DNA of 64,000 nucleotides from Bacteroidota bacterium (GTDB lineage: Bacteria; Bacteroidota; Bacteroidia; M30B66), in the NCBI GenBank assembly GCA_027490225.1, contig JAIXYK010000007.1, positions 1-64,000 on the forward strand, in the 5' to 3' direction. The notes under the pieces are model-generated. The model had not been told where the DNA came from and ran no database searches. It saw only the letters and a list, made by a program, of their open reading frames with translations. The translations under genes and the position numbers were made by a program. Below are positions 33,528 through 41,080 of the stretch, piece after piece; the stretch's first letter is position 1; every line of letters begins with the position of its first letter.

Positions 33528-35026
33528 TACTTAATCTTTAAGACGCTATTGTAATTCAAGTCACTTCTCAAAAAGTAATGAGCTGAGGACTTACTTTCAA
33601 AATAAGAATTATGTACCACTGGAAATTTGCAGGAAAGCGGAAAAGCAATTTCTTGAAATTGTCCTGAAGTATTTATAAGCATTGCTTTCAATACAGTAGC
33701 TGATTTTGCACTTATTTGGTTCTCTTGCTTTTTCTTTTCTGCAAGATCGTTATATAAAAAAAGTGAAGTTTTTTCTTCTTGTATTAGATTGAAAGATAAG
33801 AACATACCCTCATCATCTAAAGAGTATTGTTTTTTAAATAACCACTGAAACCAATCTACATTTGCACTGCTATTGAAGTTTATTATTAAAACTTTATCTG
33901 TTTTAAACTCGTCTTTACATATTTGTAAACCAGACCTGTAATCTGTTTCACAAAGTTCATCAGCTTGGGTTTGTTCTGCATATAATTGTAAACTCCCGTC
34001 TTTATTGCAAGACGCTGAGATTATCTTTAAATACTTGAAATCATCTTTGGTCATTTTTACTGCTTCCCCTGAAAAATTTCCTAAAAAAGAAGCATTAAAC
34101 GGAACTATGCTTTTTTGAATTACTTCTCCGGTTTCCCTATCAATATCCATGTAAAATGTGCCGGCAGAAATATCGGTCTTCTTAAAATCAGTTTGATACA
34201 ATCCACAAATTTTTAAATGATCATTTTCAGTTAAATCGTAATAAACGCTGGTAATCTGTTTTTCTGGCAAATCCAGTTGGTATTCCAAGATATCATCCGT
34301 AAAAATTGGAAAAGCGAACAGGGAAAAACCCAAATCTAAACTGTCCTCACTGCGTTGATATTGAACTAAAAATTGAACATTTCCTGGTTCATCAATAGAA
34401 AACTGATTAATTTTTACAACCCTACCTTTCAAATCTAATAAAGCACTTCTCTTTTTTATGATTTCATACTTGTTATCAATTATTGCAAAATGTACGATAT
34501 AATTTCCCTCTGCACCAGTTTGAACACCCAGGCTGAGCAGTAAATCTTGATTCTTACTCGTACAAAATTTAAACTTTCTACTACTCGCCTCAAAATATGT
34601 AGAAGGGTACTCCCAAAGCATTTTTTTTTCACTTACAATTCCCGAATCAGTCTCTTCTTTTCTGTAAAGCACATTGTTCTTTGTCTTTTTATCATAAGTA
34701 GAACCTAAAAAATTTAGTTTCCCATTTTTAAGTTGAATGTCCTCAGGATAAAAGTCGAACTTGTCGCTAAACACATTTTGAAAGTTTTTCGTTGAAACAT
34801 GTTTTAGTCCAGCAGTATCAATAGTTTCGATCTCTATGTGCTGAATATGAGAACTACCTTTTTCGCTTGCACCATAAGCCAGCATTAATTTATCATTTAT
34901 TTCTCCAACAAATTTTAAAGGATAAAAATTCTTTTCGTTTTGCCAAGATTCTCCTTCACTGGCTTTTTGTGCAAGCAGGTTGCTTAAAGAAAAAATACAG
35001 AGAAAAAATGCTAAGCAAAACTTCAT
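33524..35026 (-). CDS. Secreted protein of unknown function (500 aa)
   Basis: A 500-residue protein with a signal peptide ending NLLAQ. The mature part is beta-rich, with many lysine- and acid-flanked strands and several recurring SFYYDL and LKICGLYQTDFK-like segments, as in large beta-propeller-like or repeat proteins. No domain or catalytic residues are recognised. It overlaps rlmN upstream by 4 nt (ATGA), so translation is coupled, and it overlaps metF downstream at the shared TTAA stops. No T9SS tail is seen. Function unknown. Confidence 0.75.
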   Translation of the reverse strand: MKFCLAFFLCIFSLSNLLAQKASEGESWQNEKNFYPLKFVGEINDKLMLAYGASEKGSSHIQHIEIETIDTAGLKHVSTKNFQNVFSDKFDFYPEDIQLKNGKLNFLGSTYDKKTKNNVLYRKEETDSGIVSEKKMLWEYPSTYFEASSRKFKFCTSKNQDLLLSLGVQTGAEGNYIVHFAIIDNKYEIIKKRSALLDLKGRVVKINQFSIDEPGNVQFLVQYQRSEDSLDLGFSLFAFPIFTDDILEYQLDLPEKQITSVYYDLTENDHLKICGLYQTDFKKTDISAGTFYMDIDRETGEVIQKSIVPFNASFLGNFSGEAVKMTKDDFKYLKIISASCNKDGSLQLYAEQTQADELCETDYRSGLQICKDEFKTDKVLIINFNSSANVDWFQWLFKKQYSLDDEGMFLSFNLIQEEKTSLFLYNDLAEKKKQENQISAKSATVLKAMLINTSGQFQEIAFPLSCKFPVVHNSYFESKSSAHYFLRSDLNYNSVLKIKY

Positions 35027-36102
35027 GCGGTAGCCTTTTTCAAAACCTGACCAGCATCTTTATTTTTATTGGCCAATTGTCCGCAAGCCGCGTCAATGTC
35101 TCTTCCCCTGCTTCTTCTAACATTCGCAATTACACCTTTACTGTTTAAATAAGCAACAAATCGATTTACATTTTCCTCAGGAGCACGCAGAAACTCACTA
35201 TCATCAATTGGGTTATACTCAATAATATTCACCTTTGAAGGAACACGTTTTACAAAGCTTTCCAGTTCTTTTGCATCAGACAAACCATCATTAAAATCTT
35301 TAAAAATGATGTATTCCAAGGTTGGTCTAGTACCCGTTTTATCGTAAAAATGTTGCAGGGCATCTGCAAGTGTATCAAGATTATTGCTTTCGTTGATAGG
35401 CATAATCTTGCTGCGTTTTTCTTCATTTGCTGCATGAAGTGATAATGCCAAATTAAATTTAACATTGTCATCTCCCAATTTCACAATCATTTTAGCGATG
35501 CCTGCAGTTGAAACAGTAATGCGTTGAGGAGACATGCCCAATCCACTTGGAGAAGTAATTTTTTCAATACTTTCCAGTACATTTTTATAGTTCAGCAATG
35601 GCTCCCCCATTCCCATATAAACAATGTTTGAAAGCGGAATACCATATTCGGTTTCGCTTTGTTTTCTAATAGCTGCAACCTGGTCGTAAATTTCTCCTGC
35701 TTCTAAGTTTCTGAGCAATTTCAATTTACCTGTTGCGCAAAATTTACAGGTTAAACTACAACCAACTTGTGAAGAAATACAAGCTGTCATGCGTGTTGCA
35801 GTAGGAATCAACACACCTTCTACAACCGGCCCATCGTGCAGTTTAAACGCTGTTTTTATGGTGCGGTCAAAACTTTTTTGAAAATTGGCTACTGAAATTC
35901 CTTGAAGCACATAGCTTTCTTGCAAACTTGCACGTAGTTCTTTGCTCAGATTTGTCATACTATCAAAACTCAATGCCGATTTTTGCCAAAGCCATTCGTA
36001 TACTTGCTTTGCTCGGAATTTTTGTTGACCAGATGCTTTAAACCAATCTTCCAATTCTGTCAAAGTAAGTTTACGAATATCGGGTTTGTTTTGAGCTAAC
36101 AT
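35023..36102 (-). CDS. rlmN: 23S rRNA/tRNA (adenine-C2)-methyltransferase RlmN
   Basis: A 359-residue radical SAM enzyme that methylates C2 of A2503 in 23S rRNA and A37 in some tRNAs. The cluster motif CSLTCKFC gives Cys115, Cys119 and Cys122; the SQVGC context is typical. GEPLLNYKNVL near residue 168, and the methyl-accepting Cys in DIDAACGQLA (about residue 340) are present. Cfr-type resistance enzymes share the fold, but the RlmN-specific N-terminal KQVYEWLWQKSALSFDSMTNLSKELR region favours RlmN. It is coupled to the following secreted-protein gene by a 4-nt overlap. Confidence 0.95.
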   Translation of the reverse strand: MLAQNKPDIRKLTLTELEDWFKASGQQKFRAKQVYEWLWQKSALSFDSMTNLSKELRASLQESYVLQGISVANFQKSFDRTIKTAFKLHDGPVVEGVLIPTATRMTACISSQVGCSLTCKFCATGKLKLLRNLEAGEIYDQVAAIRKQSETEYGIPLSNIVYMGMGEPLLNYKNVLESIEKITSPSGLGMSPQRITVSTAGIAKMIVKLGDDNVKFNLALSLHAANEEKRSKIMPINESNNLDTLADALQHFYDKTGTRPTLEYIIFKDFNDGLSDAKELESFVKRVPSKVNIIEYNPIDDSEFLRAPEENVNRFVAYLNSKGVIANVRRSRGRDIDAACGQLANKNKDAGQVLKKATA

Positions 36103-36106
36103 GCTG

Positions 36107-36114
36107 CAAATGTA
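36107..36114 (-). promoter_or_regulatory. Candidate -7 box (TACATTTG) for rlmN
   Basis: On the minus strand TACATTTG ends 4 nt before the rlmN ATG at 36102, the same spacing as at purS. It predicts an mRNA starting at or next to the start codon. No -33 TTG at the usual distance. Confidence 0.48.
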
Positions 36115-36144
36115 AGGGAAATGGCGGAAGAATAATAATGAGAA

Positions 36145-36822
36145 TCAGTTAGCAACCTTTAATGTCCAACATATCAATAATTGAATACGATACCCTTGAA
36201 GTCCTAAAAACGTTGAGTTAATACCAATTAAAAGATTTGAATATCTACTTAAAGCAGTCGAATAGTTTAGCCCTAATTCCCCAATTACATAAACATTTTC
36301 TCTTTTAAAGGAGTTTTTTAATTCAAAATTGTTTTTTTGTTTTAAATAAGAACCACCTATTCCAAAGTTTAGCCCCCAGTTAGTTTCTTTATTCTTTAAT
36401 CTAAACATTATAATTTCTCTTGCCAATAATCCATGTTGTAAGAAATTTGTATTGTAAAATGAGGACTGCGTAGGTTCTGAACTAGAATAATTTCCTTGGA
36501 AATAATCTAAAGAAACTTGTCTGTAAATTCTTTTATAACTCCCTTTATAATGCCCCAAACCGATATTCCAATTTTTACTTCCTGTGGTTGATCCTCCTAA
36601 AAGTCCTATTGAGTTAGTAAATCCAGCCTTTAAATAAAAAGAAGAATCTAAAGAAACATCCAATTGTCCATTTAATCCTAATGTGTTTAACCCTATATTT
36701 AAATTAGCTTGCCCTTTTCTTGTAAAAAAATTAGGAATATTAGGAGCAACAGTATAACTAGCACAAGATCCAAACAAAAGTAACAACAGAAAAAATAGAT
36801 AAAAGTGTTTTATTGGTCTCAC
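36145..36822 (-). CDS. Predicted barrel-like lipoprotein
   Basis: A 225-residue protein with a lipobox (LLFGSC, Cys at residue 20) after a hydrophobic signal. The mature part has alternating strands (GQANLNIGLNTLGLNGQLDVSLDSSFYLKAGF, then NWNIGLGHYKGSYKRIYRQVSLDYF, then WGLNFGIGGSYL) like a small outer-membrane beta barrel, but the lipobox makes that an unusual combination. GTG start at 36822. No known family. It stands between rlmN and a divergent amidohydrolase gene. Function unknown. Confidence 0.7.
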   Translation of the reverse strand: MRPIKHFYLFFLLLLLFGSCASYTVAPNIPNFFTRKGQANLNIGLNTLGLNGQLDVSLDSSFYLKAGFTNSIGLLGGSTTGSKNWNIGLGHYKGSYKRIYRQVSLDYFQGNYSSSEPTQSSFYNTNFLQHGLLAREIIMFRLKNKETNWGLNFGIGGSYLKQKNNFELKNSFKRENVYVIGELGLNYSTALSRYSNLLIGINSTFLGLQGYRIQLLICWTLKVAN

Positions 36823-36829
36823 GGCTTCG

Positions 36830-36837
36830 TACTTTTG
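36830..36837 (+). promoter_or_regulatory. Candidate -7 box (TACTTTTG) for the amidohydrolase gene
   Basis: Exact TAnnTTTG on the plus strand, 37 nt before the GTG at 36875, in the divergent 36822/36875 gap. A TTG at 36813-36815 is closer (14 nt) than normal for a -33. Confidence 0.4.
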
Positions 36838-36874
36838 AGCAAGTTATACATTTAAAACAACTGTACTAAAAAGC

Positions 36875-38125: not shown

Positions 38126-39559
38126 GTGAAAACACAACTTATTTATAGTTTTTATAAACACCCTACTTATGGTTTAAGTTTGGAAGCCTTTATTGTTGAT
38201 TTGCTAGATAACAAAGCATTCTCTTATCAATACAAGCGAATAAATTATGAAATGATTTCCGATTATGGGTATCCTTTTACAGAAAATGATGTGAAGATAA
38301 TCAAGAAGATTGAGGACCTTTCACTTAAAAATATTGAGAAGCATTTTAATCCTAAAAAAGTAAAACTGGAGGTTTTTCTTGAGAAACTCTCAAAAGACAA
38401 AGAGCAATTGAAAATAGTTTCAGCCTATTTTGATAAAAGAGTTGCTTATTGCCTGGCACATTTAAAAGGCCAAAAAGTGTATTGGAAAAATCGCAATTCT
38501 GATCATCCAGGGATGATTCCATTGAATGTATTAGAAACTCCTGCGAAGCTTATATATTTTTTTAGTAAAACAGAAGACGGTATTTCTTACAGACTCGAAA
38601 TGCGTTATAAAGACCAGGTTATTTCTCTTCAAAAACCTGGTACAGAAGTCATCAGCAATGAGCCTGCCTGGTTAAAACACATGGATAATGTGTATCATTT
38701 TTCTGACCCAACAGATGGACAAAAATTAATGCCTTTCCTAAACAAGGAAGAGGTTTTAATTCCAGATAGATTATCAGAATTTTATTTGAGCTCCTTTATG
38801 TTGAAGGCTTCAAAAAAGTTTGATGTTAGGTATGAAGGCTTCAATGTTAAAGAAACTCCAGATAATAAGAAAGCTGTTTTAAGCATTGAAAAAGACGTTG
38901 CTGGAAATGCAGTTTTTCAAATCGGTTATTTTTATGACTCAATGTATATTACTGCAGCTCAGGAAAACGAAGTAATAGTAAAGTTGCAAAAACATGAAAA
39001 TGATTTGCAATTGCTCAGATATCAAAGAAATCTTAAATGGGAAAAAGAGTTTGAAAAAATGTTGGGCAAGTTAGATTTGGTGATTTCAAAACCTTCATGG
39101 TTTATACCCAACACATTGAAAGATGGTAAGATTAGTTTCGAAAAATTAGTTGCTTGGTTAAGCGAAAAGCGAACTGAATTGGCAGCATTTAATATTGAAA
39201 TAGAAGCCAATCAAGCCGGAAAGCAGTATAGTTTTAATGAGGCAAAATTTCAAACCAAGAACATCAGCGAAAATGAAGACTGGTTCGACATTCATATTGT
39301 AGTTTTGATTGAGCCATTTGAAATTCCTTTCGTTAAGTTTAAAAAACACATTCAAGATAAAAAACGCGATTATACCTTGCCAGACGGAAGAATATTTCTT
39401 TTGCCGGAAGCTTGGTTCGTTCAATATTCTGACATTTTTGAAGTGGATGAAAGTGACGAAACTTCCATTAGAATTCATAAACAACACCAAGGTCTTTTGC
39501 AAGGGCATCCAATTTTAAATGGAGAAATTGAACCAAACGCTAAAGCTGCGGTCACATGA
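38126..39559 (+). CDS. N-terminal half of SNF2-family helicase, ended by an in-frame TGA
   Basis: This 477-residue reading frame ends at TGA 39557-39559 but carries on in the same frame into the helicase at 39596 with no indel. The N-terminal region is the uncharacterised domain that precedes the helicase core in long (about 970 residue) bacterial SNF2 proteins; together the frames would give 983 residues plus the stop. It begins at GTG 38126 and shows no transmembrane or signal segment. Composition is K- and E-rich with many aromatic residues, in good coding style right up to the stop. It may be a nonsense-disrupted gene, two separately made proteins, or a readthrough product. Confidence 0.75.
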   Translation: MKTQLIYSFYKHPTYGLSLEAFIVDLLDNKAFSYQYKRINYEMISDYGYPFTENDVKIIKKIEDLSLKNIEKHFNPKKVKLEVFLEKLSKDKEQLKIVSAYFDKRVAYCLAHLKGQKVYWKNRNSDHPGMIPLNVLETPAKLIYFFSKTEDGISYRLEMRYKDQVISLQKPGTEVISNEPAWLKHMDNVYHFSDPTDGQKLMPFLNKEEVLIPDRLSEFYLSSFMLKASKKFDVRYEGFNVKETPDNKKAVLSIEKDVAGNAVFQIGYFYDSMYITAAQENEVIVKLQKHENDLQLLRYQRNLKWEKEFEKMLGKLDLVISKPSWFIPNTLKDGKISFEKLVAWLSEKRTELAAFNIEIEANQAGKQYSFNEAKFQTKNISENEDWFDIHIVVLIEPFEIPFVKFKKHIQDKKRDYTLPDGRIFLLPEAWFVQYSDIFEVDESDETSIRIHKQHQGLLQGHPILNGEIEPNAKAAVT

Positions 39560-39597
39560 CTGAATAATAAACCTGAATATGATATTCCCTCAGGTTT
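39557..39597 (+). promoter_or_regulatory. UGA-C stop plus downstream stem-loop in the SNF2 linker
   Basis: The stop is TGA followed by C (the weakly terminating UGAC tetranucleotide, also the RF2 recoding site context). Nine nt on, AAACCTGA (39569-39576) and TCAGGTTT (39590-39597) are perfect 8-bp arms around a 13-nt loop. The 3' arm overlaps the TTG at 39596 that could start the second half. It fits neither a T-tailed terminator nor a complete SECIS (no G in the first two loop bases). Confidence 0.55.
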
Positions 39598-41080
39598 GAA
39601 TGGAACACTAAGGGATTATCAGAAAAAAGGATACGACTGGTTATGCCATTTGGCAGAAAAAAACTTAGGAGCTTGTCTTGCAGATGACATGGGCTTAGGC
39701 AAAACCTTACAAGTTATTGCTGTATTACAAAGGGTAAAAGAGCAAATTGTAATTACCAGAGAATTAAAAGCCTCAGAAGAAACTAAATTTGTTCAGCTAG
39801 ATATTTTTGATGACGGAACTGCCGTTGCACCTGAAAAAGTAAGTGCCTGCAACTTAATAGTAATGGCCCCATCTCTTATATATAATTGGGAAAATGAATT
39901 GAAAAAGTTTGCTCCTCAGCTCAAAGTCTATAAGTATTTAGGACAACGTAGGAACCTTATTCAAGAAAGCATAGATTTTTACGATGTAGTGCTTACTACT
40001 TATGGCGTAATTAGAAATGACGTAAAGGATTTGCAAAAATTCACTTTTGAGTATATTATTTTAGATGAAAGCCAATTAATAAAGAATTCAAGTTCAGCTA
40101 GTTTTCAATCAGTGAAACTGCTGAAAGGAAATAAAAGGGTTGTTTTAACGGGAACTCCTGTAGAAAACTCACTCACAGATTTATGGTCTCAACTTACCTT
40201 TCTCCAACCTGGCTTATTGGGCAGTTTTAAATATTTTAAACAAGAGTTTGTGGTTGGAATTGAACAACAGAAAGATGCTACCAAGCTCGAAAAGTTAAGG
40301 AAGATTATTCAACCGTTTATTTTAAGAAGAACCAAAGAAGAAGTTGCTCCTGAGTTGCCAGACATTACACGCAATGTTAATTATTGCGAAATGAATGCAG
40401 AACAAAAAGATTTGTACGAAAGTGAGAAGTCTGTTTATCGCAATAAAATAATGGAAGTTATTGCAAGTGAAGGTATTGACCGCAGTCAAATAATGATTTT
40501 ACGAGGTTTAATGCAATTGAGAAAATTGGCCATTCATCCTGTGTTAAATGATGCCAATTATACTGGTAGTTCGGGAAAGCTGGAAGAAATTATGAGCCGA
40601 TTGGCATTAATAAAAGATGAAAATAGAAAAGTGCTCATTTTTTCGCCTTTTGTAAAACACTTGTATCTGATTAGAGAACAGTTGAAGTTAACCGGAACAT
40701 CTTATTCTTTCCTGGCTGGTGAAGTGCTTCAGCAACACAGAGCTTCAGTAATTTCAGAATTCGATAAACATAAAGGACACCGAGTTTTCTTAATCCAGTT
40801 AAAAACTGGAGGAGCTGGTTTGAATCTAACGGAAGCAGATTGTGTTTTTTTAATTGACCCATGGTGGAATCCTGCAGCTGAAGAACAAGCAATTGCACGA
40901 GCTCATAGAATTGGACAAAAAAAGCAAGTTTTTGTATGGCGTTTTATTACAAAAGATACCATTGAAGAAAAGATTTTGAAATTGCAGCAACGTAAGTCCC
41001 GTCTTGCTTTTGATGTTATTGAACATACCAATACTTTTGGAAAAATAACAGAAGAAGACCTGAAAGAATTATTTGGGTAA
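39596..41080 (+). CDS. SNF2-family helicase core (C-terminal half of interrupted gene)
   Basis: A 494-residue ATP-dependent DNA translocase core. It has the Q-motif-like LRDYQKKGYDWL, motif I DDMGLGKT (residues 30-37, Lys36), motif II DESQ (ILDESQLIKNSSS, near residue 155, instead of DEAH or DEAQ), LTGTPVENSLTDLWSQL, QPFILRRTKEEVAPELP, and in the second RecA domain VLIFSPFVKHL, LIQLKTGGAGLNLTEADCVFLIDPWWNPAAEEQAIARAHRIGQKKQVFVWRFI. All motifs are intact, so this half may be active. TTG 39596 is the only plausible start after the stop; the frame is open from 39560. It ends 11 bp before xseA. Known relatives remodel nucleoprotein or act in repair; the role here is unknown. Confidence 0.85.
   Translation: MNGTLRDYQKKGYDWLCHLAEKNLGACLADDMGLGKTLQVIAVLQRVKEQIVITRELKASEETKFVQLDIFDDGTAVAPEKVSACNLIVMAPSLIYNWENELKKFAPQLKVYKYLGQRRNLIQESIDFYDVVLTTYGVIRNDVKDLQKFTFEYIILDESQLIKNSSSASFQSVKLLKGNKRVVLTGTPVENSLTDLWSQLTFLQPGLLGSFKYFKQEFVVGIEQQKDATKLEKLRKIIQPFILRRTKEEVAPELPDITRNVNYCEMNAEQKDLYESEKSVYRNKIMEVIASEGIDRSQIMILRGLMQLRKLAIHPVLNDANYTGSSGKLEEIMSRLALIKDENRKVLIFSPFVKHLYLIREQLKLTGTSYSFLAGEVLQQHRASVISEFDKHKGHRVFLIQLKTGGAGLNLTEADCVFLIDPWWNPAAEEQAIARAHRIGQKKQVFVWRFITKDTIEEKILKLQQRKSRLAFDVIEHTNTFGKITEEDLKELFG

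Follow-up and report, generated by a model that had tools for sequence, protein, structure and literature searches.

A single in-frame TGA in a Bacteroidota SNF2-family helicase gene, most simply read as a recent nonsense mutation

When a stop codon interrupts an otherwise open helicase gene, is it a mutation, a sequence error, or a device by which the gene is expressed? The question is raised by a gene at 38126-41080 (+) in a 64,000-nucleotide stretch of a Bacteroidota genome; the whole stretch is called the window here. Its translation consists of 477 residues, one TGA, 506 residues and a terminal TAA, in a single frame throughout. The gene thus has 984 codons and is split by the TGA with no change of frame. 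As the initial annotation had it, one frame crosses both halves with no insertion or deletion and the base following the TGA is C. The codon directly 5' of the TGA is ACA, no homopolymer or repeat occurs at the site, and no second stop or frameshift was found in the gene. The features are as follows.

38126..39559, + strand: 5' half of the SNF2-family helicase gene, a 477-aa N-terminal region that ends at the in-frame TGA and aligns over its full length to the N-terminal regions of family homologues
39557..39559, + strand: in-frame TGA at codon 478, followed by C; it falls in a variable linker with pLDDT <50 at residues 466-481
39560..41080, + strand: 3' part, consisting of the remaining linker, the SNF2-related domain and the helicase C domain (PF00176, PF00271), with the TAA end
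39569..39597, + strand: 8-bp inverted repeat with a 13-nt loop, unconserved in relatives and probably incidental
39596..39598, + strand: TTG, a proposed internal start that aligns with the codon of the nearly invariant Leu491 in uninterrupted homologues

The 3' part matches PF00176 (E 1.4e-69) and PF00271 (E 1.3e-20), both far above the cut-off, and resembles solved helicases of the SNF2/Rad54 type, for example 1Z63. The SNF2-related and helicase C domains lie entirely downstream of the TGA. The 5' part matched no Pfam or NCBIfam model. By its domain content the predicted product is a bacterial SNF2-family helicase; no named subfamily is claimed, because the NCBIfam equivalog matches (NF058637 and NF053675) are partial and far below their cut-offs. 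In close homologues the N-terminal region and the helicase core form one polypeptide, which in the present gene is broken by the TGA at codon 478.

A structure was predicted from 11 sequences, with the TGA set to Trp purely as a placeholder. The mean pLDDT was 73.5 and the pTM only 0.42, which makes the relative placement of the domains unreliable. The N-terminal region was predicted confidently up to about residue 430, pLDDT fell below 50 at residues 466-481, a stretch that takes in codon 478, and the helicase core had its first helix from residue 497. The linker holding the TGA is thus probably flexible in the predicted structure. The stop does lie, as originally described, in a linker ahead of the helicase core, one that is variable in relatives and modeled with low confidence.

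Homologues were sought in 60 related genomes, with stops read through and counted. Among the matches only the present gene had an internal stop. The gene was found in 8 of the 9 other genomes of the family at 49-61% identity, the remaining genome being 73% complete; of these homologues, six span both halves in full, a seventh comes in two contig pieces and the eighth is truncated at a contig end. Uninterrupted homologues from the family and the class have open frames of 973-1027 codons, and none of the family or class homologues has an internal stop. Opposite the TGA most relatives have T and others L or D, never a stop, in an alignment that is loose at the linker because the present gene is a few residues shorter. 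The source genome itself carries the gene once only, and nothing else in it matched the helicase half. Across the class the distribution is patchy, with any match in 29 of the 60 genomes, so that loss of the gene looks tolerable. The TGA, whose conservation had been an issue from the outset, is therefore not conserved at this linker in homologous SNF2 genes. Since all checkable relatives are free of it, a recent mutation or an error in the sequence is the most likely origin of the stop, in preference to programmed recoding.

The simplest reading, which we consider probable, is that this SNF2 helicase gene, single-copy and patchy in its distribution, recently suffered a nonsense mutation. A gene that is intact in relatives would have gained one nonsense codon in the linker before the helicase core. 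Translation would end at codon 478 and give mostly the N-terminal region alone; any core made would come only from weak initiation inside the gene or from the background level of UGA readthrough. The lesion would be recent, probably a population-level variant and possibly still polymorphic, and its recency would account for the lack of decay in either half. A survey across bacteria found in-frame stops to last, for the most part, only as long as population polymorphisms do (Belinky et al. 2021, PMC7918605). The comparison set is made up of family- and class-level relatives and the genus is represented by the source genome only, so the case for recency is built on distant relatives and the lack of decay; a contig scan for same-species copies returned distant relatives only.

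Neither half of the gene is decayed, as the initial annotation had noted. N-half divergence divided by C-half divergence is 1.53-1.92 between the present gene and its relatives and 1.19-2.05 among the relatives. The terminal branches of the present gene (0.66 for the N half, 0.47 for the C half) are similar to those of comparable relatives (0.58 and 0.50 in L005, 0.58 and 0.35 in L008), and the codon-position GC of both halves is close to that of other ORFs in the window. With 523 single-substitution routes to a stop in the gene and 0 further stops, no more than about 1.7% neutral divergence per site can have built up since the first lesion (95% bound, all substitutions taken as equally frequent). 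With no excess divergence and no second lesion the stop is young, if the gene is now neutral; function was lost very recently, or not at all. The initial annotation had held that relatives with a single uninterrupted gene, combined with relaxed selection in one half here, would count against it. Uninterrupted relatives were found and relaxed selection was not seen, and the latter agrees with expectation for a young lesion or for an error. Intact halves are equally expected from an error or from lineage-specific recoding, a point against the recent-mutation reading.

The main rival to a recent mutation is that the organism's gene is intact and the TGA comes from a base-calling or assembly error, or from a minor-strain base picked by the assembler. 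The assembly is a draft of 66 contigs, and the rest of the gene is intact and evolving normally, as this explanation would have it. However, the site is free of homopolymers and repeats, short-read contigs with good coverage seldom contain substitution errors, and a survey of the window turned up no further split gene. Only one other pair of open stretches of at least 100 codons shares a frame there; it lies at 35023-36843 (-), consists of a 225-aa lipoprotein-like ORF and, after it, an rlmN-like radical-SAM ORF, and has the look of two genes, not a split one. We judge an error or strain mixture rather unlikely, though a serious contender. What the sequence shows directly is the stop, its absence from relatives and the lack of decay; that the stop is real in the organism, and its effect on the protein, are inferred.

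The decoding apparatus bears on whether the TGA could be read as sense. An alternative genetic code was rejected: TGA terminates 11 of the 37 ORFs of at least 200 aa in the window, where it is thus a normal stop, and RF2 is present. Selenocysteine was also rejected, with no match to SelB or tRNA-Sec over the family cut-offs in the genome (the best tRNA-Sec-like matches were tRNA-Ser, tRNA-Met and tRNA-Leu) and with T, L or D, not Cys or Sec, in the homologues. No suppressor tRNA with a UCA anticodon was among the 32 tRNAs listed by a tRNA-family search in which 150 of 322 candidates were scored. Reading of UGA by a short-stem tRNA-Trp, an idea taken from PMC13092985, was discarded, the anticodon stem of the tRNA-Trp(CCA) being 5 bp (GUGGU/ACCAU) when read by eye. 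Separately, a GC-rich tRNA-like gene of uncertain anticodon (called Asn att) is present at L082 (G000:C54) 732-816. ACGGG copies border it on either side, and its GC-rich flanks differ from the AT-rich window; it is possibly of phage or contaminant origin.

The RF2 gene is normal. At about 945-963 of L083 (G000:C64), prfB has a canonical autoregulatory +1 frameshift site, AGGAGGCATCTTTGAC, laid out as AGGAGG-CATCTTTGAC and of the CUUUGAC type, and the organism therefore probably uses UGA-C recoding at prfB. A frameshift of the RF2 type at the SNF2 stop was rejected because the frame is the same on both sides, ACA precedes the TGA, and slippery and SD-like elements are missing.

Downstream of the stop, the arms AAACCTGA (39569-39576) and TCAGGTTT (39590-39597) can form a perfect 8-bp stem with a 13-nt loop after a gap of 9 nt. 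This geometry is as the initial annotation gave it; the significance attached to it did not hold. The + strand of the window has 50 perfect 8-bp stems (loop 3-20), and about 1.1% of window positions have one starting in the next 20 nt, so that this one is uncommon but, after the fact, not remarkable. The minimum-energy fold of the 81-nt context is without the stem, which appears only after the flanks are trimmed. The longest perfect stems of relatives are 4-6 bp, at other positions, and the 8-bp stem is found in none of them. Given the 1.1% background and the other pairings preferred in the 81-nt fold, the stem is weak evidence.

UGA followed by C is a leaky termination context. With this context, an unchanged frame and a stem 9 nt downstream, programmed readthrough could be proposed, but relatives that retain the two coding parts have neither the stop nor the stem, and the stem is missing from the larger fold. 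The search for Sec machinery and the tRNA scan also speak against it, as do the 5-bp tRNA-Trp stem and the elements of the genome's real recoding site in prfB, which the SNF2 site does not have. Such readthrough is very unlikely. The literature found on the UGAC context was mainly eukaryotic work, and scans for promoters and terminators did not rise above chance.

Alternatively, the N-terminal region might stop at the TGA and the core re-initiate at the TTG at 39596, giving a working split enzyme. The TGA is in a low-confidence, probably flexible linker of the predicted structure, both catalytic domains are wholly 3' of it, and the TTG is in frame and partly within the 3' arm of the stem, as stated at the outset. 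But this TTG merely codes for the nearly invariant Leu491; since uninterrupted homologues share that residue, the codon predates the stop and is not a purpose-evolved start. No relative has a split gene, and the first in-frame ATG past the TGA encodes a Met directly before Walker A, too late for a complete core. We hold two separate proteins to be very improbable. A working two-piece enzyme confined to this lineage, or a lowered dose through UGA readthrough with the stop selected as dose control, appears highly improbable.

Among the four options first offered, readthrough and the two-protein split thus find no support, as the stop, the stem and the start are unconserved as such and the searches for Sec and suppressor machinery found none. 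A recent nonsense mutation and a sequencing error are left, the data fitting either. Isolated nonsense codons are common in draft bacterial genomes; one alone is of little significance. Were the stop fixed in conspecifics, with the helicase core under purifying selection, it would represent a tolerated or regulatory nonsense codon in a chromosomal gene.

Three known systems compare with this locus. First, the gene has the SNF2-related and helicase C domains in the order usual for bacterial SNF2/Rad54-family helicases, but its linker has one in-frame TGA. Second, the prfB +1 frameshift at CUUUGAC shares with the SNF2 site a UGA followed by C, whereas the SNF2 site is without the CUU slippery codon, the AGGAGG SD-like element and the change of frame. 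Third, the in-frame nonsense substitutions described by Belinky et al. (2021, PMC7918605) are likewise single stops in genes that still look under purifying selection, whereas the SNF2 stop is known from one genome alone. Many bacterial genes with in-frame stops have been argued to keep low-level function through readthrough (PMC7918605), and the SNF2 gene may do so as well.
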